A stretch of 64,000 bases of DNA from Achromobacter spanius. GTDB lineage: Bacteria > Pseudomonadota > Gammaproteobacteria > Burkholderiales > Burkholderiaceae_B. Below the pieces are notes generated by a model that saw only the letters and a list, made by a program, of their open reading frames with translations, was not told the DNA's origin and did no database searches. The stretch lies in assembly GCF_029637605.1 (NCBI RefSeq), contig NZ_CP121261.1:5146001-5210000 (forward strand), read 5' to 3'. The translations under genes and the position numbers were made by a program. Shown one piece after another: positions 8,676 to 49,134 of the stretch (position 1 is its first letter; the number at the start of each line of letters is the position of its first letter).

Positions 8676-8695
8676 TTGATTGGCGCGCGACAGCC

Positions 8696-11476: not shown

Positions 11477-11503
11477 GCGGTACGCATCCCCGCGCGGGGG
11501 GAT

Positions 11504-11546
11504 GCGCCTTGCGGACGGTCGTCAGGCAGTCCGCAAGGCGCTTTTT
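11504..11546 (+). terminator. Rho-independent terminator after livK
   Basis: A 13-bp perfect stem (GCGCCTTGCGGAC with GTCCGCAAGGCGC) followed by TTTTT. It sits between livK and livH and probably gives partial termination, lowering expression of the membrane and ATPase genes. Confidence 0.9.
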
Positions 11547-11648
11547 ATCGCAGGGCCGTCCCAATAAAAGCCATGCCGTCTTCGCGGGCGGCGTCAGGCC
11601 ATGCAGTGGGCGCTGCATGGGGCCCTCATAGATCTGGAAAGTCCCATC

Positions 11649-12530: not shown

Positions 12531-12533
12531 AGA

Positions 12534-31516: not shown

Positions 31517-31528
31517 GCGAGGTGAATC

Positions 31529-32788
31529 ATGAATTCACTGATCGATCGCCGTCTTAACGGGCGCAATAAAAGCGCCGTCAACCGCGAGCGTTTTTTGCGG
31601 CGCTACAAGGACCAGATCCGCAAGGCGGTTCACGGGATGATCCGTGACCGCTCCATTCAGGATATGGATCAAGGCGGAGAGATCAACCTGCCCGCCCGGG
31701 ATATTTCCGAGCCTACGTTCCGGCACGGCTCGGGCGGTGACCGCGAGATGGTGCACCCTGGCAATCGCGAATTTGCCAAGGGCGACACCATCGACCGGCC
31801 GCAGGGCGGCCAAGGCGAGGGCGGGTCCGACCCGGGTGAAGGGGAATCGGTAGATCAATTCACCTTCAGCCTGTCGCGGGCCGAGTTCCTTAACCTGTTC
31901 TTCGAGGATCTGGAACTGCCGCATCTGGCGCGCAACCAGTTGGGTGAAGTCAGCCAGAAAAAATGGCAGCGTGCCGGTTACACCACGACCGGCTCGCCCA
32001 GCATGTTGAGCATCAGCCGCACGCTCAAGTCATCGTTGGCGCGGCGTGTTGCGCTGAACGTGAAAGCGCGCGCCGATCTTGAAGACGCTGAAAAGGCCTT
32101 GGCCGATGCGCGGGCGGCGGGCGCGCCTGCCGCAACCATCCGCACGCTGGAGCAGGACGTCGAGGACTGCCGCGAGCGCCTTGCCCGCGTGCCGTTCCTG
32201 GACGACCTGGACCTGCGCTATCGCAATCGGGTGTCGGTGGCCATTCCGATGGCGCGCGCGGTCATGTTCTGCCTGATGGACGTGTCGGGGTCCATGGACG
32301 AAGGCAAGAAGGACCTGGCCAAGCGCTTCTTTACGCTGCTGTACCTGTTCCTGTCTCGCAAGTACGAGCACGTGGACCTGGTCTTCATCCGTCATACGGA
32401 CAACGCCGAGGAAGTGGACGAGCAAACGTTCTTCTACGACCCCAAGAGCGGTGGCACCATCGTGCTGTCCGCGCTGGAGCTGATGCGCGAGATTCTGGAG
32501 AAGCGCTATCCGCCCTCGGGGTGGAACGTGTATGCGGCGCAAGCCAGCGACGGCGATTCGTTCGGCGCCGACGCGGGCAAGAGCGCGCGCTTTCTGGCGG
32601 AGCATCTGCTGCCGTCGACACGGTATTTCGCCTATATCGAAATTCCCGACTCGCAAGAGGCTCGCAAGAGCAGCCTGTGGGCCGAGTATGAACAGAAGCT
32701 GGAGCCGCATTTCGTCATGCGGCGCATCTGCGATCGCGGCGAGATCTTTCCCGTGTTCCATGACCTGTTCAAGAAGGAAACCGCATGA
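31529..32788 (+). CDS. yeaH: YeaH/YhbH family protein (DUF444, VWA-like)
   Basis: A 419-residue protein. The N-terminal half is polar with a glycine-rich linker (about 92-106) and a coiled-coil stretch (about 180-220). The C-terminal half is a von Willebrand A-like domain with the metal site DVSGS at 251-255 and a further threonine/aspartate region (HTDNAEEVDE). It is the usual partner of PrkA/YeaG. The start lies 12 nt after prkA, and the end overlaps the spoVR gene by 4 nt (ATGA). Confidence 0.93.
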   Translation: MNSLIDRRLNGRNKSAVNRERFLRRYKDQIRKAVHGMIRDRSIQDMDQGGEINLPARDISEPTFRHGSGGDREMVHPGNREFAKGDTIDRPQGGQGEGGSDPGEGESVDQFTFSLSRAEFLNLFFEDLELPHLARNQLGEVSQKKWQRAGYTTTGSPSMLSISRTLKSSLARRVALNVKARADLEDAEKALADARAAGAPAATIRTLEQDVEDCRERLARVPFLDDLDLRYRNRVSVAIPMARAVMFCLMDVSGSMDEGKKDLAKRFFTLLYLFLSRKYEHVDLVFIRHTDNAEEVDEQTFFYDPKSGGTIVLSALELMREILEKRYPPSGWNVYAAQASDGDSFGADAGKSARFLAEHLLPSTRYFAYIEIPDSQEARKSSLWAEYEQKLEPHFVMRRICDRGEIFPVFHDLFKKETA

Positions 32789-34338
32789 ATGCCATCGTGG
32801 GTGCTCTCGTGGAGCCGGATACGGCCGGCGGCGCTCGGCCGATATCCCAAGGCTCAGAATGGACGTTCGAACTGATCCAGTCCTATGACGACGCGATCTC
32901 CAAGGTCGCGGCCGAGTACGGCCTGGACACGTATCCGAACCAGATCGAGGTGATTACCTCGGAACAGATGCTGGATGCTTATGCGTCGGCCGGGCTGCCT
33001 ATCGGCTATCCGCACTGGTCATACGGCAAGGAATTCATCCGCAACGAGCAATACTACCGGCGCGGCATGCAGGGCCTGGCGTACGAGATCGTCATCAATT
33101 CCAACCCGTGCATCTCTTATCTCATGGAAGAAAACTCCATGACGATGCAGGCGCTGGTGATTGCGCATGCGTGCTATGGGCATAACTCGTTTTTCAAGGG
33201 CAACTACCTGTTCCGGCAATGGACCGACGCCGATGGGGTGCTGGACTACCTGGTATTCGCGCGCAAGTATGTGATGTCGTGCGAAGACCGCTACGGCATC
33301 GACGCGGTGGAATCGCTGCTGGATTCCTGCCATGCGCTGTCGCACCACGGGGTGGACCGCTACAAGCGGCCCGCGCCGATGTCATTCAAGGAAGAGGCCG
33401 CGCGTCAGGCCGAGCGCAAGGAACACGCGCGTCTGCAATACAACGACTTGTGGCGCACGTTGCCGCGCCTGGAAGCCGACAAGGACACGCGCACTGATGC
33501 GCCGGTGTTTCCGCCGGAACCCGAAGAGAACCTGCTGTACTTCATTGAGAAGTACTCGCCCAAGCTGGCTCCGTGGCAGAAAGAGCTGGTGCGCATCGTG
33601 CGCAAGATTGCCCAGTACTTTTACCCGCAGACCCAGACCAAGGTCATGAACGAAGGGTGGGCCACGTTCTGGCACTACACCATCCTGAACCGCTTGCATG
33701 AAAAAGGGCTGGTCAACGACGGCTTCATGATGGAGTTCCTGCAAAGCCATACCAACGTTGTCAGCCAACGCGGCTTTGACGAACGCGGCTATGGCGGCAT
33801 CAACCCGTATGCGCTGGGCTTTGCGATGATGACGGACATCCGCCGGATCTGCGAAGCGCCCACGCCTGAAGACCGAAAGTGGTTTCCCGATATTGCGGGC
33901 GGCGATTGGCAGAAGACGCTGGACTTCGCCATGCGCAACTTCAAGGACGAGTCCTTCATCTCGCAGTACCTGTCCCCGCGGCTGATCCGCGAGTTCCGCT
34001 TGTTTGCGATCTCGGACCATCAGTCGAACCCGAAGCTGGAAGTGGCCGCCATCCACAACGACGAGGGCTACCGCGACATTCGCCGCCTGCTGGCCGCGCA
34101 GCACAACCGCGACAACCAGGTGCCGGACATCCAGGTGGTGCGTTTCAATCGCGATTCGGACCGTTCATTGGTGCTGCGGCATTTGAAGAGCCGTGGCCGC
34201 CCCTTGGCGGGCGAGGATGCCGAGCAGGTCATGAAGCATCTGGCGCGCCTGTGGGGCTTCAGGGTCAGGCTGGAAGAAACCGAGCCGGACGGCACGGTCA
34301 GTTCTTACCGCGAGCAGGAACCCCCAGCTCCGCACTAA
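32785..34338 (+). CDS. ycgB: SpoVR family protein (YcgB)
   Basis: A 517-residue SpoVR-like protein, normal length, with conserved segments PHWSYGKEF, HACYGHNSFFKGNYLF and NEGWATFWHYTILNRL; the histidines and glutamate in these look like a metal-binding set. The Bacillus homologue is needed for spore cortex formation; the role in non-sporulating bacteria is unresolved but linked to stationary phase. Translationally coupled to yeaH. Confidence 0.94.
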   Translation: MNAIVGALVEPDTAGGARPISQGSEWTFELIQSYDDAISKVAAEYGLDTYPNQIEVITSEQMLDAYASAGLPIGYPHWSYGKEFIRNEQYYRRGMQGLAYEIVINSNPCISYLMEENSMTMQALVIAHACYGHNSFFKGNYLFRQWTDADGVLDYLVFARKYVMSCEDRYGIDAVESLLDSCHALSHHGVDRYKRPAPMSFKEEAARQAERKEHARLQYNDLWRTLPRLEADKDTRTDAPVFPPEPEENLLYFIEKYSPKLAPWQKELVRIVRKIAQYFYPQTQTKVMNEGWATFWHYTILNRLHEKGLVNDGFMMEFLQSHTNVVSQRGFDERGYGGINPYALGFAMMTDIRRICEAPTPEDRKWFPDIAGGDWQKTLDFAMRNFKDESFISQYLSPRLIREFRLFAISDHQSNPKLEVAAIHNDEGYRDIRRLLAAQHNRDNQVPDIQVVRFNRDSDRSLVLRHLKSRGRPLAGEDAEQVMKHLARLWGFRVRLEETEPDGTVSSYREQEPPAPH

Positions 34339-34686: not shown

Positions 34687-35391
34687 CTACAGGTAGCGCA
34701 ACGTGAACGTCACCGAACCATCCAGTGGAATTTCCTTGGACGTTGGCAAGGCAGCGGTTCCGTTCAACACGGGTGTCACGGCCAAGCTGACGGACGCAGT
34801 CGTGATGGGAGTGGCGGTGGCATCTTTGCCGAACGAGTATTCGTCCGCCGGATTCACGTTGATGGTGTCCATGCCCGATTGAACAGGCCAGCTTGCGCTG
34901 CCGCTGGGACGGGAAAGAACCACGGACGTACTGTTGAACGGCGGGATGCCGTCAACCACCGTGGCCTCGGGGCGCACCAACAGCACGACGGCACCGATCT
35001 TGACATCGTCGATACGGCCCAATCCCCAAGCGTGAGGCGCGCCGTTCTGCGGGTTTTGATAGGGCCATGGCATGCCGTCGGCGATGGCTTCCTGATGTGT
35101 GATGGCAGTGTCCGGACGGTTCTCGTGAACCGTGAAAGAGACGCGTGTCGGGCTGCCGCACGCGATCTCCATGCGTGGACGCTGTTCGGGCAGCAGCGTT
35201 CCGTTGCGGTTCAGCGACTGAAAAGGCAGGGTGCCGAAGTCGACGGCGCTTCCACTACCAAAGCCCATGCTGCAGGCTGGCGGGGTGAGTTGGCCGCCGA
35301 TGAGCAGATCGGCTTGATTGGTGCCTGCATGCGTGGTGCAAGCGGCGGCCAGAGTCAAGCCGGCGCAAAGGCGTGGCAGGGTTTTCATCAT
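34687..35391 (-). CDS. DUF1120-type fimbrial subunit, third of three in tandem
   Basis: About 234 residues with a signal peptide ending THAGT-like (AACTTHAG). The mature N-terminus (ADLLIGGQLTPPAC) resembles a donor strand followed by the first conserved cysteine; the second is in MEIACGSPTRVSF. The protein ends GSVTFTLRYL, with the penultimate tyrosine typical of chaperone-recognised pilus subunits. The start is uncertain: ATG at 35391 or 35388, with a TTG at 35409 also possible. It is closest in sequence to the next upstream gene (shared WPYQNPQNG and ITFTLRYL-type end), suggesting duplication. Confidence 0.85.
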   Translation of the reverse strand: MMKTLPRLCAGLTLAAACTTHAGTNQADLLIGGQLTPPACSMGFGSGSAVDFGTLPFQSLNRNGTLLPEQRPRMEIACGSPTRVSFTVHENRPDTAITHQEAIADGMPWPYQNPQNGAPHAWGLGRIDDVKIGAVVLLVRPEATVVDGIPPFNSTSVVLSRPSGSASWPVQSGMDTINVNPADEYSFGKDATATPITTASVSLAVTPVLNGTAALPTSKEIPLDGSVTFTLRYL

Positions 35392-35436
35392 GTGAGCGAA
35401 GAGAGTCAAATTCGAGCGGATGCCATTGGAACGTGG

Positions 35437-36138
35437 TTACAGGTAACGCAACGTGAACGTGATCGAGCCGTCCAACGGAATTTCGTTCGCTGCGGGCAAG
35501 GTTGACGGTTGGCCGATCATGGGGGAGAGTCCGACCGCCAACTGCGCGTTCGTAATCGGTACGGCGGGGCCGCCCGTCGGGCCGAACGAGTATTCAAGAT
35601 CGGGGCTGAGGTTGACTGAATAGTGCGATGACCCTATCGACCAGATATTGCTTCCCGTGGGGCGCGCAAGGATCTTTTGCACCCCCGCTTCGGTCAGGAG
35701 CGCTCCGTCGACCATGGTGCTGGCGGGAATAATCAGCGCGATCAATGCGCCCGTCTTGATCTGTTTGCCGTCTGCAAAGCCCAACCCCCAGGAATACTTG
35801 GTGCCGTTCTGCGGGTTTTGGTATGGCCAGTTGAGATTGGGCGCTTCCTGAAGCGTGATGCCCGAGCCTGCCCGGTTGTCCAGCGCGACAACGCTGACGC
35901 GCGTGGGGGTGCCGCAATCGATCTGCAGGAGGGTGTCTTTGCTGCCGAGTTTCGTGCCGTTGTTGTCCAAGGCGTTAAATGCGATGGCGTCGAAGTCGAG
36001 CGTTGCATTACCGTCAAAATGGGCGTTGCATGCCGGTGGTGTGAGCTTGCCCGTCACGGTGAGATTGCTATTGCCGGCAGCGTGCGATGTGGCAGCCAAC
36101 GTGACCAACGCCACGCCGACAAAGAATTGGTTTTTCAT
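35437..36138 (-). CDS. DUF1120-type fimbrial subunit, second of three in tandem
   Basis: A 233-residue secreted subunit; AGGAAAG before ATG 36138 fixes the start, and the signal peptide ends TSHAA. Same plan as its neighbours: donor-strand-like segment NLTVTGKLTPPAC, a second cysteine in LQIDCGTPTRVSV, and C-terminal GSITFTLRYL. It shares the WPYQNPQNG motif and the C-terminus with the downstream paralogue. Likely assembled on the cell surface by the chaperone and usher encoded at 38.6-41.9 kb. Confidence 0.87.
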   Translation of the reverse strand: MKNQFFVGVALVTLAATSHAAGNSNLTVTGKLTPPACNAHFDGNATLDFDAIAFNALDNNGTKLGSKDTLLQIDCGTPTRVSVVALDNRAGSGITLQEAPNLNWPYQNPQNGTKYSWGLGFADGKQIKTGALIALIIPASTMVDGALLTEAGVQKILARPTGSNIWSIGSSHYSVNLSPDLEYSFGPTGGPAVPITNAQLAVGLSPMIGQPSTLPAANEIPLDGSITFTLRYL

Positions 36139-36316
36139 GATTAGCTTTCCTGATGTCAACAAATGCCGTCCTCGGAGGGCAATGAACCACCTGACCCGAC
36201 TTTGCGCACATGCAGCGGGGCCGAGCGACCTTGTGGAGCCGCACGGTCGAATGCTGCATTTGTCTTGGGGATATTCGATTGCAGGAGGGCGCCACAGCGC
36301 GCCCTCCGCGCTACCG

Positions 36317-37036
36317 TTACAGGTAAACGAGCGAGATCGTGGCGCTGCCGTCCAGCGGGATGGCGGCGGTCGTGGGGAGTTCGCTGGCGCGGTTGATCGT
36401 GGGCATTACGGTCAGCGAACCGGCTACCGCCGTGACCGGTACCGGCGTGGCGTTGGCGCCCGGGGAGCCCAGGAAGAATGAGTAGGTGAAATTCGGGCTG
36501 ATGAACTGCCGCAATACGGCTTCGGCGGACCAGGTGCGCTTGTCCGCGCTGTAGAGCACGGTAGCCTTGCTGCCGTTGGCTTGGACGTCGCCTTCCTTGA
36601 AGCCGAACATGTAGCCGCCGATGGGAATCTGCGTGTCGTTGGCGCCAGCGACGGAGCCGAGCCCAAAGATGTAGGCGTCGGTGATGTTGGAGCTGATGGA
36701 GCCCCAGGCGTTGATGTTCAACGAGGCTTTCAGAACTTTGCTGCTGGCGCGGTTGTCTACCACGTGCAGGCCGACGCGCGTGGCGCCGTCGCAAGTGATG
36801 TTCAGGCCAACCGTTTTTTCGGTCAGCTTGGTGCCGTCGACGTTGAGCGAATTGAATGCGCGGTCGCCGAAATCAAGCACGCCGTTGCCGGCCAGGGAAA
36901 GGTCGCAGGACGGGGGCGTGATGCGACCGGTGATCTTGAGTTCAGCTGAGGGAGCCGCTTGGGCGGATGCGGCGATCAAAAAGCTTGCGGCCAAGAGGTA
37001 GCGCAGGGTGGGCAGGGGGCGTACCGAGTAATTCAT
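36317..37036 (-). CDS. DUF1120-type fimbrial subunit, first of three in tandem
   Basis: A 239-residue protein with a signal peptide ending SAQAA, donor-strand-like ELKITGRITPPSC, a second cysteine in LNITCDGATRVGL, and C-terminal GSATISLVYL with penultimate tyrosine. It diverges from the other two in the central region (GSISSNITDAYIFGLGS). It is the promoter-proximal gene of a three-gene minus-strand unit; a 178-nt gap separates it from the next gene, which may hold processing or partial termination signals. The operator-like palindrome at 37098-37111 lies 62 nt upstream. Confidence 0.87.
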   Translation of the reverse strand: MNYSVRPLPTLRYLLAASFLIAASAQAAPSAELKITGRITPPSCDLSLAGNGVLDFGDRAFNSLNVDGTKLTEKTVGLNITCDGATRVGLHVVDNRASSKVLKASLNINAWGSISSNITDAYIFGLGSVAGANDTQIPIGGYMFGFKEGDVQANGSKATVLYSADKRTWSAEAVLRQFISPNFTYSFFLGSPGANATPVPVTAVAGSLTVMPTINRASELPTTAAIPLDGSATISLVYL

Positions 37037-37068
37037 GACTATCCAGTTTCTGGTGGGACAAAGGAATC

Positions 37069-37111
37069 ACTCTAGGAAACGGATGACTTTTGGGATATAG
37101 GCATGCGCCTA
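37069..37111 (-). promoter_or_regulatory. Palindromic operator and promoter of the fimbrial subunit operon
   Basis: TAGGC-ATGC-GCCTA (37098-37111), preceded by GATA on the plus strand. Read toward the subunit genes, 19 nt after the motif end comes TAGAGT (37074-37069), a good -10. The palindrome therefore sits over the -35 position. The same motif and geometry occur upstream of the fimbrial chaperone at 41961-42004. Confidence 0.65.
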
Positions 37112-37216
37112 ATCTTCATTACGGTTGCGTAAACAGCTGCGTTACTATTTGTCCACGTTGGTTTTTCGTTCAACGAGAAACAGTGGAAAATCTGGGCTCT
37201 ACCGGGGAATTCCATA

Positions 37217-37906
37217 TTGTCAGCATCCAATTTTCGTCCGTTGCGCATCGCGATCCTGGATGACCATCCGGTGGTACGGGCAGGCATGTCTGCGTACTTG
37301 TCGCAAAACCGCGACATTGTTGTCATCGGCGAGTACGAAACCAGCCGGGACCTGATCCAGGCGCTTGCGAACCAGACCGCCGACGTCTTGTTGATCGATT
37401 ACTCGTTGGGCCCCGCCGAGGTCGACGGCATCTCGCTGATCAAAACGCTGCGTATCAAGTTTCCCGACGCGCGCATCCTGGTGTTCTCCGCGCTTTATGA
37501 CCCCGCCACTGTTGCGCTGGCCTTGCGATCCGGCGCGCACGGTTTCGTGGGCAAGGGCGGACGCGAAGAGGAAATCGTGCTGGCGGTGCGCAAGGTTGCC
37601 GCGGGAGGCACGTATTGCGATGCGCAGATGACGTACTTGTTGTCCGGTGCAAGCACCGAGCAGACTGAACCGCCACCAGGCGATCCCGCCTTGCTGCCGT
37701 CGGCATGTGGCGTGCTGGATGGCGCGTCGCTGTCGGACCGCGAGCGCGAGGTGATTCGTTGCCTGCTGGCTGGGATGACAATCTCTGACATTGCCGTCAA
37801 ATTCGGGCGCAGCCCAAAAACCATCAGCGCGCAGAAGGGCACCGCTTATCGCAAGCTGGGCGTGACGACGGACAACGGCCTGTTCAAGCTGTGCGGGCTC
37901 TTGTAG
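37217..37906 (+). CDS. Orphan LuxR/FixJ-family response regulator in the fimbrial locus
   Basis: A 229-residue two-domain regulator. The receiver domain has the acidic pair D15-D16, phosphoacceptor D61 in LLIDYSLG, S91 and K113; the C-terminal LuxR-type HTH is about 171-225 (LSDREREVIRCLLAGMTISDIAVKFGRSPKTIS). The start codon is TTG, with GGGGA about 10 nt upstream. Overall shape is that of BvgA, RcsB or FimZ. No histidine kinase is encoded in the window. It is the only plus-strand gene inside the fimbrial locus and is divergent from the subunit operon, so it probably controls that locus. Confidence 0.88.
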   Translation: MSASNFRPLRIAILDDHPVVRAGMSAYLSQNRDIVVIGEYETSRDLIQALANQTADVLLIDYSLGPAEVDGISLIKTLRIKFPDARILVFSALYDPATVALALRSGAHGFVGKGGREEEIVLAVRKVAAGGTYCDAQMTYLLSGASTEQTEPPPGDPALLPSACGVLDGASLSDREREVIRCLLAGMTISDIAVKFGRSPKTISAQKGTAYRKLGVTTDNGLFKLCGLL

Positions 37907-37945
37907 AGCCGCTTTGCAACGGTGAGCCGCAGCGCGGCCGAGCCT

Positions 37946-38551
37946 TCAAGGATCCAGCAATTCAAACTGCAGCGTGGCGGACCATTGCGTCTGGTCGGTG
38001 ACGCGAACGTCGGCATCGGCCACTTGAGGTTGCAACACGATTTGAGCGGTAATGCTGCGCGCGGCTCGGCCCTGTTCCAGCGCTATCGTGTCGCCGGGCT
38101 GCATGGCGATCTGGGTCTGTGGGCCATGAGGCGAATTCGGATTGAAGACCCGGGTCGCCACGCCGTCAACCGTGACGTGGCCAAGCTCGACCTGCACGGC
38201 GCCGGCTCCCGCGAATTTCGCAGCCCCATCGTGGCGCGCGGGCGCGTTCAGGCGCAAGACAATAGGACGCGCGCTTGGGCAGTTGATGGTCAACGGCACA
38301 GAGCGGCGCTCAAGTTGATAGCGACGACTTGCGTCCAGTGTCAGTTGCCCAGCTGTGAAGCTGCCGTAATCCACGGTGGCCAGCCCAAATGCCATGACGC
38401 ACCCGGCCATCGGCATCGCAGGCGCCGGGCGCGCCATGGGTGGCGATGGCTGCGCCACAGCCTGGAGCGTCCAGCTACCTGCAAGCAGCAACGTGGCTGC
38501 CGCCAAAGCGGCCCGAGCGCGCGGGAGGATGCAGGGCCTTGTAAGAATCAT
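37946..38551 (-). CDS. Fimbrial subunit-like protein next to usher, possible tip component
   Basis: A 201-residue secreted protein with signal peptide (cleavage near AVAQ). The mature N-terminus is proline- and methionine-rich (PPMARPAPAMPMAGC) and lacks the alternating hydrophobic donor strand seen in the three tandem subunits. Cysteines in AGCVMAFG and LTINCPSARP match the DUF1120 pair. The C-terminus (ATLQFELLDP) lacks the penultimate tyrosine. It starts 34 nt after the usher stop, so it belongs to the chaperone-usher unit. A subunit that accepts but does not donate a strand would cap the tip; this is inference. Confidence 0.75.
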   Translation of the reverse strand: MILTRPCILPRARAALAAATLLLAGSWTLQAVAQPSPPMARPAPAMPMAGCVMAFGLATVDYGSFTAGQLTLDASRRYQLERRSVPLTINCPSARPIVLRLNAPARHDGAAKFAGAGAVQVELGHVTVDGVATRVFNPNSPHGPQTQIAMQPGDTIALEQGRAARSITAQIVLQPQVADADVRVTDQTQWSATLQFELLDP

Positions 38552-38584
38552 GGTGTGGTCCTATGCGGGTTGGGGCGGGTTCGT

Positions 38585-41044
38585 CTATGGGCGGCACGTG
38601 GCTAGCGCGCGTTCGTACAGCGCGTCCAGGTTCGGCGCGGAGGGAAGGTCAAAGTCGAGCGTGCAGGCCGCGTCGTCCGTTGGTGCAACGCTGTATGGCG
38701 CGCCGTCCGCCTGCAAATCAGGTAGGAATATCTGGCCGCCGCTCGCCACCAGCGTAATGAAGGCCCCTTTCGCATCCAGCACGGCAGCGCCCTTGGGCAC
38801 GGGTGAGCCATCGGCGTAGGTGGCGGTCAGCAAGGCGCGGCGGACCGTGACAACGGCGAAGTCAACCGCTGAAACCGAGCCGCGCGCGGGCTCCAGGCTG
38901 TAGCGGCCGTTGATCAAATCCACATTGCGCGCCAATGATGTCGTGGCCACCTGGATCTGCCCGTTGCGATAGGCGGGCAGTGATGGAATGACGGCGCGGC
39001 CCCACGGGTCAGTCCACACGCTGCCGGCAGGCGTGCTCAAACGCACGCCGGACAGGCCGCCCACGGACGCGATGGCGAATGTGTCCTGTACCCGGTAGGG
39101 CGAAAAGCTCAGGCCTTGCGCGTGCCCGACGAGCCCGCCGCGCATGCGCACGGAATGGCTGTATCCACCGGTGAAGCTGCTTGCCGCGACGTTCAGCTGT
39201 GTATAGGCGGAATTCATGCCGACCGAGCCTGAATAGCTGGTCTGGCCTTGGGAACTGGTGGTGGCCCCCAGCGCGTAGCTGCTCCCCTCGCCGATGGACG
39301 CGCTGGTGTTAACGCCGTAGCTCGTGCCATTGTCCTGCCGCTGCATGGATGCGCTGACGCTTTGCTTGCCCAAGGGCAGGCTGACGTTCAGGTACATCAG
39401 GCTGCCCTGGGTGCGATGGCTGGAACCCATGTCTCGTTCGAACGACACCGACAGGCTGGCGCGACTGAAGCTCTTGCCCCAGCTCAATATGCCGCGTCGC
39501 GACGCGTTGCCGCGGGTGTTCAGGGATTCGCTGTAATTGGCGCTGAAGCCGCCCAGCGTCGATCCACTCCAGCCAAGCCCGGCGCTTATCTGCTGCTTGA
39601 TGCGGTATTCGTGATGGGGCGGGTAAAGGTGCGCCTCGTCCTGCCGCCTGTGCCGTGGCCGTGTGCCGCTGCTGTCGAGCACGTCGCTGTAGCCATCCGT
39701 GCGTCGCAGGAAAGAGATGTTCGAAGACACACCCGGCAGCAACTGGGCAGAGGCCGACACGATGTGCTGCGCGCCGCTGCGCTCCGTACGCGAGTTTTGC
39801 GAATACGTGCTCTGCATGCCAGCCTGGATGCTGCCGGGCAGCACCATGTCGGAGCGTCCGCTGATGGCGCGATAGTCCTGGGTGAGCAGGGCGCCGGCCG
39901 CGATATTGGCGCGTTTGCCCAGTGGGATGCCGTACTCCGCTGCCGCGACCGGCCTGGTGTTGGCGTCGGTGGTGCCGGTCTGTCGCAGCATGCCAAGGCC
40001 GCCGCTGAAGCCAGCGGCCGCGCCCACGCGGTCTACCTGCAGCGCTGCCGCAGGGACGTAGAACACGCGCTCTTCGCCCGACGCTTCGTGAATCACAACC
40101 TTGATGTCTTGAGTCAGCGAGCGCGGCTGCACGTCGGTCATGGTGAAGGGGCCAGGGGGAACGATGAGGGACGCCAACGGTATGCCGTTCTGCCAGACCT
40201 CCACGCGTGCCTGCGTATGCGCGATTCCGCTGATGGGCGGGCCTTCATGCTGATGGCTTTGCAAGGCGGTTTCGGGGAAGAGTTGAAGCCCCGTGACCGG
40301 CACGCCGCCAAACAGCGTGCCCTGCAGATTGATCTGCCCCGCCTGGAAAGTCGTCCCCCATGCGGGCAGCGTGCGTTGCGCATAGGCATCGATATGGTTC
40401 CACGTCGACGTTCCGCCGATGTTGGAATAGGTGCTATTGCTGCGCAGGATCCAATCGTTCGCGTTCAGGCCCAGTTCGGTATAGGCCTGCAGGTAATTGC
40501 TTTTTCCGCCGATATAACGCGTCTGGTTTGAGAGCACGTCGTAGTTCAGGATGACGGCACGTCCGCCCGATTGATACGTCGTCGCGCCTGCCACTCTGTT
40601 CATTGCGCCAGGCGGCGCCACGATTTCGACGGTCATGCGTTCTGGCTGCAGCGAGATCGTGGTCGTGGGCCATGCTTGCAGAAACGCGTCAGGACAGACA
40701 GGCGCGTCGTTGCCTTGCGACACGGGCACTTTCAGCTCTGCCTGTGTCAGCAGCGCATTGGTCAGACAGAGCTTGCCGTCGGTATCGAAAGTGGCTTGTG
40801 TGCGCCCCACGTTGCGGCCATTGACGGTAAGGTGCACCGTTTGATGGCCGGGCAGGAATTGCGGGCCGTTCTGAAAATGTGACGCGATGGCGGGATTCAG
40901 TCCACGGCTTTTCAGGATTTCAAGGTCAAAGCCGCCGGCGCCGGATTGCGCATAGGCAGACCAGTGCAGGCACAACAGTAGGCTCGCGGTGGCCAGGGTG
41001 CGACCACGAGCGTTGCGTAAGCAGAGACAGAACATGAAAGCCAT
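38585..41044 (-). CDS. Fimbrial outer-membrane usher protein (FimD/PapC family)
   Basis: About 819 residues. Signal peptide, N-terminal periplasmic domain (FDLEILKSRGLNPAIASHF, about 30-150), 24-strand barrel with plug region (FFPETALQ-like LFPETALQSHQ and GIAHTQARVEVWQNG), and C-terminal domains (YADGSPVPKGAAVLD, about 735-819). It forms the outer-membrane channel that receives chaperone-subunit complexes. ATG 41044 is chosen because it starts the signal peptide; a longer open frame to 41341 would read through GC-rich repeats and the end of the chaperone gene. Confidence 0.92.
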   Translation of the reverse strand: MAFMFCLCLRNARGRTLATASLLLCLHWSAYAQSGAGGFDLEILKSRGLNPAIASHFQNGPQFLPGHQTVHLTVNGRNVGRTQATFDTDGKLCLTNALLTQAELKVPVSQGNDAPVCPDAFLQAWPTTTISLQPERMTVEIVAPPGAMNRVAGATTYQSGGRAVILNYDVLSNQTRYIGGKSNYLQAYTELGLNANDWILRSNSTYSNIGGTSTWNHIDAYAQRTLPAWGTTFQAGQINLQGTLFGGVPVTGLQLFPETALQSHQHEGPPISGIAHTQARVEVWQNGIPLASLIVPPGPFTMTDVQPRSLTQDIKVVIHEASGEERVFYVPAAALQVDRVGAAAGFSGGLGMLRQTGTTDANTRPVAAAEYGIPLGKRANIAAGALLTQDYRAISGRSDMVLPGSIQAGMQSTYSQNSRTERSGAQHIVSASAQLLPGVSSNISFLRRTDGYSDVLDSSGTRPRHRRQDEAHLYPPHHEYRIKQQISAGLGWSGSTLGGFSANYSESLNTRGNASRRGILSWGKSFSRASLSVSFERDMGSSHRTQGSLMYLNVSLPLGKQSVSASMQRQDNGTSYGVNTSASIGEGSSYALGATTSSQGQTSYSGSVGMNSAYTQLNVAASSFTGGYSHSVRMRGGLVGHAQGLSFSPYRVQDTFAIASVGGLSGVRLSTPAGSVWTDPWGRAVIPSLPAYRNGQIQVATTSLARNVDLINGRYSLEPARGSVSAVDFAVVTVRRALLTATYADGSPVPKGAAVLDAKGAFITLVASGGQIFLPDLQADGAPYSVAPTDDAACTLDFDLPSAPNLDALYERALATCRP

Positions 41045-41069
41045 GATTGGTCTTGGCGCAATACCGTTG

Positions 41070-41190
41070 CGGCCCCGGGGGCCGGGGCCGTTCGCGTGTA
41101 GCCAAGCGTGTTGGTGCCGAGGTCGGGCAGCCCGGGCGTGGCCGCCCAGTGGGGCCGCCGAGGTGGGGCCGCCGAGGTGGGGCCGCCGAG
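41070..41190. repeat. 14-bp tandem repeat and GC hairpin between chaperone and usher genes
   Basis: GTGGGGCCGCCGAG is repeated three times in a row at 41149-41190. A second structure, CGGCCCC/GGGGCCG (41070-41090), forms a 7-bp stem close to the usher start. The 163-nt gap separates two genes that are usually tightly linked; the structures could lower usher expression relative to chaperone. Confidence 0.75.
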
Positions 41191-41207
41191 GCCAGGCCGA
41201 GATACGG

Positions 41208-41912
41208 TCAGTGCTTGATCGGTGCGTCGAACGACGACACTTGATAGCCGTAAACGCTGGCGGGGTAGAGACGCACGGTGCTCTGCCCTTGCAGCGGGGC
41301 GCCCGTGGTGGCGAGTTGCAGCGTTTCGCCGGGCAAGACATAGGTTTTGGGTAGGGTCAGCGCCTGATTCGAGGGCTGAGCATGGACCTGCTGGTCCATC
41401 CGTACGATGTAGGGGCTGGGATTGTGCACGGTCAGTGTGCCGTCACGAACTTCCCACTGAAGCTTGCGCCAGGGGGCGTTATCGTTCGGCACCCCCTTGG
41501 GGAGCGCGATCAGGGGGAGGTCTTGGCGTATGGTCAGGCGCAGTTTGTTGCCTTGCTCGCCAGATTGCGGAATGCCTTCGAACACGGCGCGCTTCATGCG
41601 TTGCGTGTCCAGGGGTTTGTCGCTGGTCAGCAGAAACCGGACCAATTGCGTTTTGCCGGGGGCCAGCACGGCGGCGGGCGGCGACACCGTGACCCAATCG
41701 TCCTGGTCTTCCTGGATGTTTTCAATGATGGACACCAAGAGCACGGGTTCGTCACCCGTATTCTTGATGCCGATGGTGCCTTCGCCGGTATTTTCGTGCA
41801 CGAGCACGACCGACGTTTCAGGCTGGATGCCCATTGCAAGGGCTTGGCTGGTGGGGAACAGGAGGGCGAATAGAGATGCCGCGACGATGCGCGGAAAGGA
41901 ATTTTTGAACAT
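41208..41912 (-). CDS. Periplasmic fimbrial chaperone (PapD-like)
   Basis: A 234-residue two-domain immunoglobulin-like chaperone. Signal peptide ends ALAM-like (QALAMG). The G1-strand/conserved region is QTQ-type: APGKTQLVRFLL near 90, with R and K positions used to anchor subunit C-termini, followed by RLTIRQDLPLIALP. The C-terminal domain ends QVSSFDAPIKH. It captures DUF1120 subunits in the periplasm and passes them to the usher. First gene of the chaperone-usher unit. Confidence 0.92.
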   Translation of the reverse strand: MFKNSFPRIVAASLFALLFPTSQALAMGIQPETSVVLVHENTGEGTIGIKNTGDEPVLLVSIIENIQEDQDDWVTVSPPAAVLAPGKTQLVRFLLTSDKPLDTQRMKRAVFEGIPQSGEQGNKLRLTIRQDLPLIALPKGVPNDNAPWRKLQWEVRDGTLTVHNPSPYIVRMDQQVHAQPSNQALTLPKTYVLPGETLQLATTGAPLQGQSTVRLYPASVYGYQVSSFDAPIKH

Positions 41913-41960
41913 GGGGGGATATCGCTAAGGCATCGGCCCAAAGGGCCTTGAAAGCGTAGC

Positions 41961-42004
41961 AGTGTAGAAACGGGTGGCCCCCGCTTGATATAGGCGAGCG
42001 CCTA
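41961..42004 (-). promoter_or_regulatory. Palindromic operator and promoter of the chaperone-usher operon
   Basis: TAGGC-GAGC-GCCTA (41991-42004), again preceded by GATA on the plus strand. Read toward the chaperone, 20 nt after the motif end comes TACACT (41966-41961), a -10-like box, and both sites share CCGTTTC just before it. The match in sequence, orientation and position to 37069-37111 argues for a common activator. Confidence 0.65.
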
Positions 42005-42333: not shown

Positions 42334-42510
42334 GGCTCTTGCTCCGCTTGCGGGCGTCCCAGGATGGCGACGCGCCTGAGTACCTGCGGTTTATCTTAGA
42401 CCTTGCGCGCGCCCTCGCGGCCATCCAGCCTGTCACGTTTGCAAGGGGCTGTTGCAGCATCGGAACCTTATAATTCCGGCTCCTCGCCGATAAGCGGCCA
42501 GGCCTGTGCA

Positions 42511-43485
42511 ATGCGCTGGCTCACCTCTTTGCCTACCCCTTCGCGACCTCTATCCTTGACCGAATCCGTCGAACGCTCTGTCCATACCGAACTCGTCGCC
42601 GTGCTGGTGGCCGTGACCAACGGCGAACCGCGCGTGTTGACCACGGATGACGCGCGCGCCTTGCCGGCTGGGCCGTTCGAATTGTCGCATCGTTCGTTGC
42701 AAGCCGGCCTGCGCGCCTGGGTGGAGACGCAGACGCATCATCCCTTGGGCTATGTGGAACAGCTCTACACCTTTGCCGACGGCGACCGTTCCGACGAATC
42801 CGGCGCGCGCGTCATGTCGGTCAGCTACCTGGGCCTGACGCGCGAAGCCGGCGAAACCGGCGTGGCGCAGGTCGGCTGGCAAGACTGGTACCGCTATTTC
42901 CCGTGGGAAGACCGGCGTGCCGGCGCGCCCGCGCTGGTCGAGGATTTGATCGTGCCGTGGTTGGCGCAATGGTGCGAGGCCAGCGCCGACCCGGCCGTGC
43001 GCACACGCCGCCGGCAGCGTGCCGCCATCACGTTCGGTCTGGACGGCGCGGCATGGAATGAAGATATGGTGTTGCAGCGCTACGAGCTTCTGTTCGAGGC
43101 GGGGGCCGTGCCCGAGGCCGTGCGGCGCGGGGGCGGCAAGGCCGTGTTGCCCGGTGAGCCGATGCGCCACGATCACCGCCGCATTCTGGCCACCGGCATT
43201 GCGCGCTTGCGTGCCAAGATCAAGTACCGCCCCGTGGTGTTTGAATTGATGCCGGCCCAGTTCACCTTGCTACAACTGCAGTTGGCCGTCGAGGCCTTGG
43301 CGGGAAGGGCATTGCACAAGCAGAATTTCCGTCGCCTGATCGAGCAACAGGCACTGGTAGAAGAAACGGGCGAGATGGCGACGGGTACGGCGGGCCGGCC
43401 AGCCAAGCTGTTCCGTTTCCGGCGCGACGTGCTGCTGGAACGCGCCATTGCCGGCAGCAAATTGCCTTTGTCCCGGACCTTGTGA
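42511..43485 (+). CDS. NrtR-like Nudix-related transcriptional regulator of NAD metabolism
   Basis: About 324 residues. The N-terminal part follows the Nudix fold but the catalytic box is degenerate (GPFELSHRSLQAGLRAWVETQT in two halves lacks the RE-xx-EE core), as in non-catalytic NrtR regulators. The C-terminal winged helix is characteristic: FTLLQLQLAVEALAG, KQNFRRLIEQ and GRPAKLFRFRR. NrtR proteins bind ADP-ribose-type ligands and control NAD genes. nadC starts 82 nt downstream on the same strand. The start is uncertain; ATG 42511 is chosen, with a TATAAT at 42469-42474 upstream. Confidence 0.85.
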   Translation: MRWLTSLPTPSRPLSLTESVERSVHTELVAVLVAVTNGEPRVLTTDDARALPAGPFELSHRSLQAGLRAWVETQTHHPLGYVEQLYTFADGDRSDESGARVMSVSYLGLTREAGETGVAQVGWQDWYRYFPWEDRRAGAPALVEDLIVPWLAQWCEASADPAVRTRRRQRAAITFGLDGAAWNEDMVLQRYELLFEAGAVPEAVRRGGGKAVLPGEPMRHDHRRILATGIARLRAKIKYRPVVFELMPAQFTLLQLQLAVEALAGRALHKQNFRRLIEQQALVEETGEMATGTAGRPAKLFRFRRDVLLERAIAGSKLPLSRTL

Positions 43486-43488
43486 CGC

Positions 43489-43519
43489 TTGACAAGGCTT
43501 ATGCTCGTATTTAGCATAA
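43489..43519 (+). promoter_or_regulatory. nadC promoter with embedded operator
   Basis: TTGACA (43489-43494), 17-nt spacer and TAGCAT (43512-43517) form a near-consensus sigma70 promoter. The inverted repeat TTATGCT-N7-AGCATAA (43499-43505 / 43513-43519) covers the spacer and -10. A protein bound there would occlude RNA polymerase; the NrtR-like neighbour is the obvious candidate. Confidence 0.7.
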
Positions 43520-43567
43520 CTAGTGCGCAATCTCTGCGCGCCTTTTTTTAACTCACAAATACTCAAA

Positions 43568-44452
43568 ATGAGCATTAAAGCCGAAGTGCCTTCGAATGCC
43601 TTTCGCCTGACTGTCCCGCCTCTGCCGGACGTCATGCTCTTGCCGCTGGTTCAAGCTGCCTTGCTTGAAGATCTGGGCCGGGCCGGCGACTTGACCACCG
43701 ATGCCATCGTGCCGGCCGACGCCGTCGCGGAAACCCGGCTGGTGTCACGCCAAGAGGGCGTGTTGGCCGGTTTGGACCTGGCTCGCCTGGCATTTCAAAC
43801 CATGGATCCGGGGATCCGCTTCAGCGCATCGCTGCGCGACGGCGCTGACCTGTCACCCGGCACCGAGATTGCGCGCTTGCATGGCAATGCCAGGGCGATG
43901 TTGACCGCGGAGCGGGTGGCGCTGAACTTCCTGTGCCACCTGAGCGGAGTGGCCAGCGCCACGGCGTCAATTGCGCGAGCCATTTCCGGCTACGGCGCGC
44001 GCGTTACCTGCACCCGCAAGACCCTGCCGGGCTTGCGCGCCGTGCAAAAGTACGCGGTGCGCGTGGGCGGGGGCAGCAACCATCGCTTCGGGCTGGATGA
44101 CGCCGTGCTCATCAAAGACAACCACATTGCGCTGGCCGGCGGCGTCGCCAACGCCGTGCAGCGCGCGCGGGCGGGCGTGGGCCACATGGTCAAGATCGAG
44201 CTGGAGGTGGACACGCTGGCACAACTGGAAGTGGCGCTGTCGCTAGGCGTGGACGTGGTGTTGCTGGACAACATGAGCCTGGATGAGCTGCGCCGCGCCG
44301 TCGACATGGCGCGTGGCCGGGCGGTTACCGAAGCCTCGGGCCGCATCACGCCCGAAACTGCCGCCGCCGTGGCCGCCACCGGCGTGGACCAGATTGCCGT
44401 CGGCTGGTTGACCCACAGCGCCAAGGTGCTGGACATCGGCCTGGACGCCTGA
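43568..44452 (+). CDS. nadC: Nicotinate-nucleotide diphosphorylase (carboxylating)
   Basis: A 294-residue quinolinate phosphoribosyltransferase that makes nicotinate mononucleotide from quinolinate and PRPP. Conserved segments: [43 protein letters not shown] and the late LLDNMS. nadA and nadB are not adjacent. The gene has its own promoter with an operator-like repeat and lies next to the NrtR-like gene, which supports transcriptional control by NAD status. Confidence 0.95.
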
Positions 44453-44461
44453 GAGCCTGAT

Positions 44462-45451
44462 ATGAAAAACCTGCTTCGACTTTGCCTTGCGTTGTGCGCC
44501 GTTCTTCCGCTGGCGTCCTGCGGTAATTCACCCTCGGGCGATGCGGCGACTGACGCCTCCTACCCTGCGCACCCCATCACGATCGTGGTGACGTTTCCGC
44601 CCGGCGGGGGCACGGATTTGCTGGCGCGTCGCATCGGCGCCAGCCTGCAAGAGCAACTGGGCCAGCCGGTGATCGTCGAGAACCGACCCGGCGCTAGCGG
44701 CAATATCGGCGCACGCATCGTGGCCGAGGCGCCGCCGGACGGCTACACCGTACTGATGGTGAACAGTTCATTCGCCATCAATCCCGGGGTCTATCGGAAC
44801 CTGGATTTTTCGCCGAAGCAGGACTTTGCCGCCGTGATCAATGTGGCGTTCGTACCGTCCGTCTTCGTGGTGCCGGCCGCATCGCCGCTGCAAACCTTGG
44901 GCGATGCGCTGGCCGTGGCCGTGCCAGGCAAACCCTTGCCGTTCGCATCGTGCGGCAACGGCACGCCGCAACACCTGGCGGGGGAAATGCTGGCGCGATC
45001 CAGCGGCGCGGTGCTGCAGCAAGTGCCTTACAAGGGATGTGGCCCCGCGCTGAAAGACGTGACGGCCGGCCAGGTGGCGATGGGTATCGTGACGGCGTCC
45101 AGCGCGGCGCCCCTGATTGCCGCGGGCAAGCTGCGCGCGCTGGCGGTGACGTCTCCAGCGCGTTCTCCGTTGATGCCCACCGTGCCCACGGTCGCCGAGC
45201 AAGGCATTGCGGGCTACGCGTTGGACCAGTGGCATGGTTTGCTGGCGCCTGCCGCCACGCCGCGAGCGGTGGTCGACAAGCTGAACGCCGCCGTGACGAA
45301 GATCGTGCGGCGGCCCGAGATGCAAGCCGCGCTGCGTGAACAGGGTTTCACGCCCGCCAGCAGCACGCCCAAAGAGTTTCAGTCGATGATCAACGCCGAC
45401 ATCGACCGCTATACGGCATTGACGGCATCGATCGGCTTGCGCGCGGATTGA
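44462..45451 (+). CDS. Bug-family tricarboxylate-type binding protein, predicted lipoprotein
   Basis: A 329-residue TctC-like (Bug) protein, recognised by PITIVVTFPPGGGTDLLARR, VIVENRPGASGNIGA and PDGYTVLM. The signal sequence ends in a lipobox LASC with Cys20, followed by G-N, so it should be lipidated and probably kept at the outer membrane. Most Bug proteins are soluble periplasmic. Bug genes are greatly expanded in Bordetella and Achromobacter; most are orphans without TctA/TctB genes, as here. Ligand unknown; a carboxylate or aromatic acid such as nicotinate is possible given nadC 9 nt upstream. Confidence 0.88.
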   Translation: MKNLLRLCLALCAVLPLASCGNSPSGDAATDASYPAHPITIVVTFPPGGGTDLLARRIGASLQEQLGQPVIVENRPGASGNIGARIVAEAPPDGYTVLMVNSSFAINPGVYRNLDFSPKQDFAAVINVAFVPSVFVVPAASPLQTLGDALAVAVPGKPLPFASCGNGTPQHLAGEMLARSSGAVLQQVPYKGCGPALKDVTAGQVAMGIVTASSAAPLIAAGKLRALAVTSPARSPLMPTVPTVAEQGIAGYALDQWHGLLAPAATPRAVVDKLNAAVTKIVRRPEMQAALREQGFTPASSTPKEFQSMINADIDRYTALTASIGLRAD

Positions 45452-45463
45452 ACAACCGTTGGG

Positions 45464-45498
45464 GGAGATGGCGTCGGCGGTGCGCCGACGCCATCTCC
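45464..45498. terminator. Bidirectional terminator between Bug protein and YebE-like gene
   Basis: A perfect 16-bp stem (starting GGAGATGGCGTCGGCG) with a 3-nt GTG loop, between convergent genes. The T-tract is weak (CTTCATT), but the stem is very stable. Confidence 0.8.
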
Positions 45499-45503
45499 TT
45501 CAT

Positions 45504-46196
45504 TCAGGCGACCGCGCTCTTGGCATGCTGTTCCAGCTTTTCCTTCAAGCCGGGCTCCAGCCGGAGCTGACGCGCCAATTCGTCCAGGTAGGCGCGTTCC
45601 ATATAGCTTTCCTCGTCCACGACGAGCAGGCTGGCCAAGTACATTTCCGCGGCCATTTCCGGCGTCTTGGCGGACTGGGCCACGGCAGCCGGGTCCAGCG
45701 GTCGCGACAATTCCGTTTCCAGCCACTGGCGGTCTTGGGCATCGGATGACAGCTTGGCCAATTCGGTTTCGAGCAGGCCGCGTTCTTCGGGGCCGATGTG
45801 GCCGTCGGCCTTGGCCGCGCCGATCATGGCGGTCAGCACGGCGTTGCTGTGTTGCTCGGCCTCGGGCGCGGGCAGGCGGTCCAGGGTTTGGGGCGGCGCG
45901 GCTTGTGCGCCACCGGCCTGGTTGCGCTGCCAGTCGCCATAAGCGCGATAGGCCAGCGCGCCCAGCGCCGCCATGCCGCCATACATGGCGACTTTGCCGC
46001 CGATCTTGCGTGCCTTCTTGCTGCCCATCAACAAGCCCAGCGCGCCTGCACCCAGCGCACCCCCACCCAGGCCGGTCAGGAACGAACCCTTGCCGCCTGC
46101 CGAGCCGCCCGTCGCGCCTTGCACGCGGTTGGTGGCGTCCGATAGCAGGCCTTGGCCCGATTGCAGCAATTGATCAAGAAGTTGTCTGGCGCTCAT
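45504..46196 (-). CDS. YebE/TerB-like inner-membrane protein (DUF533)
   Basis: A 230-residue protein: an N-terminal helix (ARQLLDQLLQSGQGLL), a glycine-rich membrane segment (about 38-60), then an alanine/glutamine linker and a C-terminal helical TerB-like domain (about 100-230) with the acidic motif GEAKADGHIGPEE-like AAKADGHIGPEERGL. Function unknown; Escherichia coli YebE is induced by envelope stress. Single-gene unit. Confidence 0.85.
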   Translation of the reverse strand: MSARQLLDQLLQSGQGLLSDATNRVQGATGGSAGGKGSFLTGLGGGALGAGALGLLMGSKKARKIGGKVAMYGGMAALGALAYRAYGDWQRNQAGGAQAAPPQTLDRLPAPEAEQHSNAVLTAMIGAAKADGHIGPEERGLLETELAKLSSDAQDRQWLETELSRPLDPAAVAQSAKTPEMAAEMYLASLLVVDEESYMERAYLDELARQLRLEPGLKEKLEQHAKSAVA

Positions 46197-46354
46197 GCGT
46201 CCCCCTAAGTCAGTTCATGAATTGCGGATAGGGATATCCGACCAGTGGTGTGCCAATAAGTTCAGCATTTCGTCAGGTGTGGATGACGCTGGCGGATGCT
46301 ACAAATTGGGCTTGCGGCATCCGCGACGGACACCGAACCCAGGAGAATGAATTC

Positions 46355-46753
46355 ATGAGCATCCGCGTCCACCAGAATGCGCCCGACACGTTGCAATTCA
46401 CCGCCACGGCCGAGGGCCACGACTTGCCGTTGGCGATGCCGCGGCCGCAAGGAGAAGGCCCCGATCCGCATGATTATTTCGACACCGCGCTGGGCGGATG
46501 CAAGGCGATGACGCTGATGGTCTACGCCCAGCGCAAGGAGCTGCCGCTGAAGTCGGTGGATGTGGAGGTGGTGCGCGACGCCAGCGAGGAGCGCAAGGGC
46601 GTGTATCGCCTGACGGCCAAGCTGACACTGCATGGCGACCTGTCAGACGCGCAGATTGATGAGCTTCTGGCGGTGGCCGAGAAATGCCCGATCCACAAGC
46701 TGATGACGGCGGTGGACGTGCAGGTGTCCACGTTGGTGGTACGGCCGGCTTGA
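46355..46753 (+). CDS. OsmC-family redox protein
   Basis: A 132-residue OsmC/YhfA-like protein with the two reactive cysteines Cys49 (GGCKAMT) and Cys111 (KCPIHKLM). Members reduce organic hydroperoxides using these thiols. AGGAGA before ATG 46355 fixes the start. It is convergent with fabI. Whether it is a peroxiredoxin or a YhfA-type protein of unknown role cannot be told here. Confidence 0.88.
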   Translation: MSIRVHQNAPDTLQFTATAEGHDLPLAMPRPQGEGPDPHDYFDTALGGCKAMTLMVYAQRKELPLKSVDVEVVRDASEERKGVYRLTAKLTLHGDLSDAQIDELLAVAEKCPIHKLMTAVDVQVSTLVVRPA

Positions 46754-46757
46754 GCTG

Positions 46758-46794
46758 GCCGTGGGGCGGGGGGAAAACCGCCCCGCCCCACGGC
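46758..46794. terminator. Hairpin between convergent osmC-like gene and fabI
   Basis: GCCGTGGGGCGGGG and CCCCGCCCCACGGC form a 14-bp stem around a 9-nt A-containing loop. No T-run follows; probably a bidirectional transcript end. Confidence 0.7.
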
Positions 46795-46799
46795 AAGTA

Positions 46800-47585
46800 T
46801 CAGCCTTCCATGCCCGGGACGACGGTCGAGAAGCCGGCGTCCACGTGGGTGATTTCGCCGGTGACGCCGGCGGCCAGGTCCGACAGCATGAACGCCGCTA
46901 CGTTGCCCACGTCGTCAATGGTGACGTTGCGGCGCAGCGGCGCCTGCGATTCCACGAACTTCAGGATGGACGAGAAGTCCTTGATGCCGCTTGCGGCCAG
47001 CGTCTTGATGGGACCGGCCGAAATGCCGTTGGCGCGAATGCCGCGCGGGCCCAGCGCCGTGGCCAGGTAGCGCACGCTGGCTTCCAGCGATGCCTTGGCC
47101 AGACCCATGGTGTTGTAGTTGGGAACCACACGCTCGGCACCCAGGTAGGTCAGGGTCAGCACCGACCCGTTGCGGCCTTCCATCAGCGGCAGCGCGGCCT
47201 TGGCCATGGCGGCAAAGCTGTAGGCGGAAATGTCGTGGGCGATGCGGAAGCCTTCACGCGACAAGCCGTCAAGGAAGTTGCCGGCGATGGCCTCGCGGGG
47301 GGCGAAGCCGATGGAATGCACCAGGCCGTCCAGGCCATCCCAATGCTGGGCCAGCTCGGTGAACGCGCCTTCAATCTGGCTGTCTTCGGCCACATCGCAA
47401 GGCAGCACGATCTTGCTGCCGAATTCTGCGGCGAATTCGACCACGCGATCCTTGAAGCGGTCGCCCACATAGGTGAACGCCAGTTCGGCGCCTTGCTGGT
47501 GACAGGCGCGCGCAATGCCGTAGGCGATGGATCGGTTTGAAAGCACTCCCGTAACGAGAATGCGCTTGCCGGCGAGAAAGCCCAT
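46800..47585 (-). CDS. fabI: Enoyl-[acyl-carrier-protein] reductase (NADH)
   Basis: A 261-residue short-chain dehydrogenase of type II fatty acid synthesis, catalysing the last reduction of each elongation cycle. The FabI-type cofactor loop [13 protein letters not shown] is at 13-25, and the catalytic set is Tyr147, Tyr157 and Lys164 in YNTMGLAK spacing. Normal length. It is the target of triclosan-type inhibitors in other species. Single gene between an osmC-like gene and mltD. Confidence 0.96.
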
Positions 47586-47656
47586 GATGGTTCCTTTAGT
47601 TTTTTTCCTGCGGAAAGACCGCCCATTTTAAGGAGTTTGGCGGTATCCGCGTACGT

Positions 47657-47686
47657 GTAAAAACGGCGCCCACAGGGGGCGCCGTT
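47657..47686 (-). terminator. Terminator after mltD
   Basis: On the minus strand, AACGGCGCC pairs with GGCGCCGTT around a 7-nt loop, followed by TTTTTACAC. It separates mltD from fabI. Confidence 0.88.
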
Positions 47687-47708
47687 CTGTGGTGACGACT
47701 GGCGGATA

Positions 47709-49127: not shown

Positions 49128-49134
49128 CAGGCGG

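Follow-up and report, generated by a model that had tools for sequence, protein, structure and literature searches.

A palindrome shared by two fimbrial promoters of Achromobacter spanius is a likely operator of the RcsB-like regulator encoded between them

Introduction

Which protein switches on the fimbrial genes of Achromobacter spanius, and through which DNA site? We analysed a stretch of 64,000 nucleotides (nt) of the A. spanius genome (NCBI RefSeq assembly GCF_029637605.1, contig NZ_CP121261.1, positions 5,146,001 to 5,210,000), referred to here as the window. It contains a fimbrial locus of two minus-strand units, one of three subunit genes (34687-37036) and one encoding a chaperone, an usher and one further fimbrial protein (37946-41912), with a response regulator gene on the plus strand between them (37217-37906). 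The 14-bp palindrome TAGGC-N4-GCCTA lies upstream of both units. We consider it likely that this palindrome is the operator of the regulator, which would act as a class II activator of both units and probably control itself. Literature searches, judged by their listings, turned up no description of this Achromobacter fimbrial locus. The reading names a specific DNA site and a specific protein for the control of an Achromobacter fimbria, both open to direct experiment.

Results and Discussion

The palindrome and its conservation

The two copies were noticed in a first-pass annotation of the window, and a pattern search finds both where it had placed them. Operator 1 (37098-37111) lies in the region from which the first subunit gene and the regulator gene diverge, operator 2 (41991-42004) lies upstream of the chaperone gene. 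The annotation had proposed a whole-genome search, with frequent copies elsewhere as the outcome that would speak against an operator. In the genome of 6,474,880 bases (6.47 Mb, one contig) exact TAGGC-N4-GCCTA occurs twice in all, as operators 1 and 2 at the fimbrial locus, and a reversed control pattern occurs eight times. The 18-base motif originally drawn around the palindrome also has two exact matches in the genome, both at the locus. With up to three mismatches it has 36 forward and 37 reverse matches, these weak matches are mostly background because the control gives 27 and 27.

The regulator is present at an identity of at least 81% in 7 of the 43 Achromobacter genomes compared: the window genome, A. 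kerstersii (G013), A. piechaudii (G018) and G034-G037. The other six show the same arrangement: both palindromes, the chaperone and usher genes and one or more subunit genes. The extended form TAGGC-N4-GCCTATAT occurs exactly twice per genome in all seven, and is absent from the other 36 Achromobacter genomes. Its TATA extension on the promoter side is kept, with GCCTATAT in all 14 sites; the inner GC that the 18-base motif treats as fixed is not conserved. In 225 further genomes of the family the extended form has nine matches against 15 for the reversed control. We treat these nine as background: the control is more frequent, and none of the seven cluster proteins is found in their loci of about 3 kb. 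A further site, CAGGC-N4-GCCTATAT at G000:C1:14923, recurs in 5 of the 7 genomes but was rejected as a third member of the regulon. In the four loci aligned it falls within a conserved coding frame, presumably purD, and is probably a coding coincidence.

The lowest pairwise identity among the seven loci is 62% for the divergent region and 48% for the chaperone side. Against this divergence the half-sites, TATAT and the three -10 boxes (below) do not vary, and the longest unbroken stretches of identity on the chaperone side fall on both half-sites and on the -10 box. The core is short, with ten fixed bases, and the two promoter regions could resemble each other by chance or as a functionless relic of duplication. 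This conservation in seven genomes makes such an origin extremely improbable, as does the finding that none of 100 dinucleotide-preserving shuffles of the window yields an exact copy.

A related chaperone, 43-48% identical, is encoded in seven other stretches, found in six other Achromobacter genomes and at a second locus of A. kerstersii. Five of these seven carry a different NarL-type regulator, 32-33% identical. TAGGC-N4-GCCTA is absent from all seven, and their sole match to TAGG-N6-CCTA is TAGGG...CCCTA at position 469 of locus L183, some 1.3 kb past the usher match. The operator goes with the regulator and not with the fimbria: these related-chaperone loci without an orthologue of the regulator have no site.

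The palindrome might be bound instead by another regulator, for instance an unlinked one or the NrtR-like protein encoded at 42403-43485, with the local response regulator acting elsewhere. The link between the response regulator and the site comes from sequence comparison, and the neighbouring protein is of the NrtR winged-helix type, its gene followed by one for quinolinate phosphoribosyltransferase. However, the exact extended motif is found in the genus only where the local response regulator occurs (7 of 7 against 0 of 36 genomes), the site is missing from the seven related-chaperone loci, and the geometry of the palindrome matches sites beside relatives of the response regulator. We regard another binder as quite unlikely.

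Promoter geometry

Each fimbrial unit has a predicted -10 box on the minus strand. TAGAGT (37069-37074), for the subunit promoter, lies 23 nt from operator 1, and TACACT (41961-41966), for the chaperone-usher promoter, lies 24 nt from operator 2. The predicted -10 box of the regulator gene, TACTAT (37143-37148, plus strand), lies 31 nt from operator 1 on its other side. The 19 and 20 nt given in the first-pass annotation for the fimbrial boxes hold when counted from its extended motif (GATA...), the values above are counted from the 14-bp core. Between core and start codons lie 61 and 78 nt, one fewer in each case than the 62 and 79 nt noted before. The sequence CCGTTTC does precede both boxes in the window genome, as had been remarked; the seven loci keep only T.TCCTAGAGTG and T..CTACACTG.

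The TAGAGT hexamer and its 23-nt gap are identical in all seven loci. TACACT is likewise present in all seven, at a gap of 23 nt in five and 24 nt in two (the window genome and G035). For the regulator gene, TACTAT and its 31-nt gap are fixed in all seven although the spacer has diverged. From this fixed gap it is very probable that operator 1 serves two divergent promoters, those of the subunit unit and of the regulator, which supports the earlier suggestion that the first copy could control the regulator gene.

Palindrome centres were computed with the first base of the predicted -10 box set to -12. Relative to the subunit promoter the centre of operator 1 is then at about -42.5, relative to the regulator promoter at about -50.5. 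Operator 2 is centred at about -43.5 in the window genome and at -42.5 in five of the seven loci. With spacers of 16-18 nt, the 14 fimbrial promoters offer no hexamer that shares more than 3 of 6 positions with TTGACA, 3 of 6 being the best match at both fimbrial promoters of the window. The regulator promoter has no -35 hexamer common to all seven loci. Class II sites lie near -41.5 at promoters with a weak -35 or none, and both fimbrial promoters have this arrangement as judged from the predicted boxes. A shared operator over the -35 of both promoters had been proposed in the annotation, its exclusivity and the spacing conserved in seven genomes argue for it.

We propose that an unlinked kinase phosphorylates the regulator, a dimer of which would bind TAGGC-N4-GCCTA just upstream of the missing -35, and partly replace it, at both fimbrial promoters. 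The bound regulator, centred near -42.5, would recruit RNA polymerase in the manner of a class II activator, so that the subunit unit and the chaperone-usher unit would be switched on together. Operator 1 would also serve the divergent regulator promoter and provide feedback. The regulator probably controls its own gene, a positive sign being more likely than a negative one.

The same regulator could also work as a repressor, keeping both fimbrial promoters off while bound over the -35 and turning them on by its release. The sites abut or overlap the sigma contact region at -35, which is compatible with repression. But there appears to be little basal promoter to repress, because no -35 hexamer of the 14 promoters exceeds three matches to TTGACA. 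Moreover, related regulators are reported to activate fimbrial operons, RocA3 acting on cupB (PMC12051241) and RcsB on cupD (PMC3842833). Repression is in our view unlikely.

The response regulator

The regulator is a protein of 229 amino acids with a TTG start. It consists of a receiver domain (PF00072, 8e-17) and a GerE/LuxR helix-turn-helix domain (PF00196, 1.5e-10), which is the architecture of NarL/FixJ proteins. It aligns to RcsB over residues 9-223 (E 4.5e-23) and scores 99.1 bits, below the cut-off of 235 of the NCBIfam RcsB equivalog, so it does not qualify as an RcsB orthologue. All phosphorylation residues are present in the alignment to RcsB (D15, D16, D61, S91 and K113). Two relatives of the regulator, at loci L023 and L024 (G033 and G022), have LDSH and MEYF in their receivers against LDDH and IDYS in the window protein. 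These two regulators may be independent of phosphorylation, since the receiver residues are changed.

Helix alpha-9 of RcsB is described as reading the half-site TTAGGAA via K180 and S184 (PMC5829831). The recognition helix of the window protein is SPKTISAQK, that of RcsB is SIKTISSQK (core KTISAQK against KTISSQK). The base-contacting K180 is kept as K201, S184 is replaced by A205. The local LuxR-type regulator had been named as the candidate protein at the palindromes, and this RcsB-type helix supports the choice, as do palindromes of the same geometry beside its relatives.

Palindromes beside related regulators

We examined the best 78 loci of relatives by regulator alignment. Two are Achromobacter copies of the locus, the other 76, from Pseudomonas, Ralstonia, Burkholderia, Stenotrophomonas and others, were counted. 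Exact TAGGA-N4-TCCTA is present in 13 of the 76, some of these 13 being closely related to one another. For comparison, the mean over the 30 permutations of the letters of TAGGA, which include TAGGA, is 0.9 loci, and the TAGGA palindrome at the other gaps from 0 to 9 is found in 0-1 loci each. The looser TAGG-N6-CCTA has 28 sites in the best 78 loci, four of them from the two locus copies; the reversed control has 13. At one locus of Pseudomonas putida the palindrome precedes FimA-type and PapD genes, and in two near-identical Pseudomonas loci TACACT follows the TAGGA site at 23 nt. Across the relatives a -10-like hexamer stands at 23 nt in 4 of 48 oriented flanks, the next highest count being three at 30 nt; this signal is weak, as two of the four flanks are the near-identical Pseudomonas loci. 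Taken together, the comparisons indicate that palindromes of the type TAGG-N6-CCTA accompany regulators of this class, TAGGC-N4-GCCTA being the form of this clade.

Individual loci show variants of the arrangement. In Stenotrophomonas loci L124, L126 and L127, TAGGA-N4-TCCTAATCT at position 6862 starts 139 nt before the regulator match. Locus L092 of Pseudomonas protegens 14B2 (7001-12899) encodes a fimbria of similar type, with a chaperone 46% identical and a directly adjoining relative of the regulator, and has an imperfect TAGGA...GCCTA palindrome ahead of its subunit gene.

In Achromobacter itself there are 36 TAGGA-N4-TCCTA sites in 23 of the 43 genomes. We checked one site per genome (23 of the 36 sites, about 3 kb each). 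In 17 of the 23 loci the site is accompanied by a NarL-type regulator match within these 3 kb, and in 14 of these 17 the site lies 9-34 nt past the regulator gene. These regulators are mostly of another subfamily, since 16 of the 17 have the helix KT[IV]STYK. In 14 of loci L203-L223 the site past the gene of such a KT[IV]STYK regulator has the form GTAGGA-N4-TCCTAC, this is a probable operator of the neighbouring gene.

Covariation of A205 with the C of the half-site was considered and is unsupported by 19 chosen loci (17 of the best 78, plus L050 and L051). Alanine occupies the A205 helix position in 11 of the 19, and six of these 11 show no site. The others have TAAGA or TCGGA...TCCTA (L083 and L099), TCGGA...TCCTA with a mixed TAGGC...TCCTA (L086), TAAGA...TCCTA with the same mixed form (L106), or TAGGC...GCCTG with TAGGA...TCCGA (L137). 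The related regulators and their half-sites (TAGGA, TCGGA and TAGGC) form a natural series, which is material to dissect the operator specificity of RcsB-type proteins.

Known systems and the partner kinase

The fimbrial (fim) promoters of Bordetella are activated by BvgA, which belongs to the same class of response regulators. The sites of BvgA are of the heptad type and it has a linked BvgS.

Another parallel is found in Pseudomonas aeruginosa PA14, in which overproduction of RcsB is reported to induce cupD. The cupD1 promoter is described as depending on a site that resembles the RcsAB box and lies about 75 nt upstream of the first fimbrial gene, with support from promoter mutation (PMC3842833). 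The two loci share an RcsB-type regulator, chaperone-usher genes on the same island and an upstream site. They differ in that PA14 has RcsC, PvrS and PvrR, whereas no kinase is found beside the Achromobacter regulator; the half-site is TAGGC in Achromobacter and contains GAA in PA14, and Achromobacter has two split units with one site each. In the Roc system of Pseudomonas (RocS-RocA-RocR) response regulators likewise control chaperone-usher operons, cupB and cupC, and one kinase is said to be able to serve several regulators (PMC12051241). Unlike that system, the Achromobacter regulator has neither a kinase nor an EAL-type regulator beside it among the cluster and flanking proteins scanned. 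Compared with enterobacterial RcsB and the RcsAB box, the recognition helix is nearly identical and K180 is kept (PMC5829831), whereas the score is below the equivalog cut-off, S184 has become A205 and the half-site ends in C and not A. We place the Achromobacter locus among the known fimbrial control systems of the Roc/RcsB type, as a member with an altered half-site and no linked kinase.

The scan covered seven cluster proteins and nine flanking proteins (29591-34338 and 42403-49172), and no histidine kinase is among them. As in Roc and RcsCB, the regulator adjoins chaperone-usher genes (usher, PapD chaperone and DUF1120 subunits). In the four relatives' loci scanned, which were chosen for having a long open reading frame (ORF) after the regulator, this ORF encodes an unorthodox kinase. 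The locus raises the question of which kinase feeds a regulator that has all phosphorylation residues but no kinase encoded alongside.

A Roc-like cluster is found elsewhere in the same genome, at about 3.1725-3.1807 Mb (G000:C1; L166 4533-12668). It encodes a hybrid kinase, an EAL-domain response regulator, an unorthodox kinase with an Hpt domain and a NarL-type regulator. This cluster is a possible source of the partner. Co-occurrence is uninformative as a test of it, since a homologue of its second kinase (1119 amino acids) is present in 40 of the 43 genus genomes.

Several observations weigh against our assignment of operator and regulator. The 14-bp core is less exclusive than the extended form: 9 of the 36 remaining Achromobacter genomes contain 13 copies of it in total, and G035 and G036 have three extra copies. 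The seven genomes are probably one clade, because five of the six other locus genomes encode, away from the locus, a kinase 76-95% identical to that of the window genome, against at most 62% identity outside them (G034, which is 57% complete, has no close match to it). The locus was then probably inherited once, and the 14 sites would be orthologous, not independent events. Among the 76 relatives' loci, 63 lack the exact TAGGA palindrome, none has the TAGGC palindrome with a gap of 4, and several GC-rich half-sites are commoner than TAGGA (GCGCG in 32). The change of the half-site from A to C is unexplained by the recognition helix, and -50.5 is an unusual position for an activator of the regulator promoter. 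An NrtR-like DNA-binding protein is encoded near operator 2, as discussed above. Finally, the partner kinase was not found, a relative's kinase having no clear counterpart in the genome (best match 41% over the kinase core).

A more specific history is conceivable, and we offer it tentatively. The locus may have become a self-contained two-promoter regulon that lost its linked kinase, with the operator changing from an ancestral TAGGA-N4-TCCTA to TAGGC-N4-GCCTA at the fimbrial and own promoters and the protein changing outside the classic helix contacts. It would thereby be insulated from paralogous regulators with TAGGA sites. Against this, the window genome has no exact TAGGA-N4-TCCTA site to be insulated from; such sites exist in four of the six other locus genomes (G013, G018, G034 and G036).

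Fimbrial genes and neighbours

The subunit unit consists of three genes of the DUF1120 type on the minus strand, the first at 36317-37036, the second at 35437-36162 and the third at 34687-35409. The number of subunits varies between orthologous loci. A. piechaudii (L045/L078) has two subunit genes only, without an orthologue of the second, and A. kerstersii (L048) has a fourth subunit-like gene that runs off the fetched stretch.

The second unit, also on the minus strand, begins with the PapD-type chaperone (41208-41912), followed by the outer-membrane usher (listed ORF 38585-41341). Its last gene (37946-38551) has no Pfam match and resembles NCBIfam PRK15301 with 39.8 bits (cut-off 226). The true start of the usher is probably further in than that of the listed ORF, because the main alignment begins at residues 67-123 in five of the six orthologous loci; in G036 it begins at residue 2. 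At 41150-41191 a GC-rich unit of 14 bp, TGGGGCCGCCGAGG, is repeated head to tail in three identical copies, just past the chaperone stop (41208, minus strand) and within the part by which the listed usher ORF is extended at its N-terminus. The repeat probably falls in a short gap between chaperone and usher genes. On the other side of operator 2, the NrtR-like gene is divergent from the chaperone gene, and the quinolinate phosphoribosyltransferase gene that follows it lies at 43523-44452.

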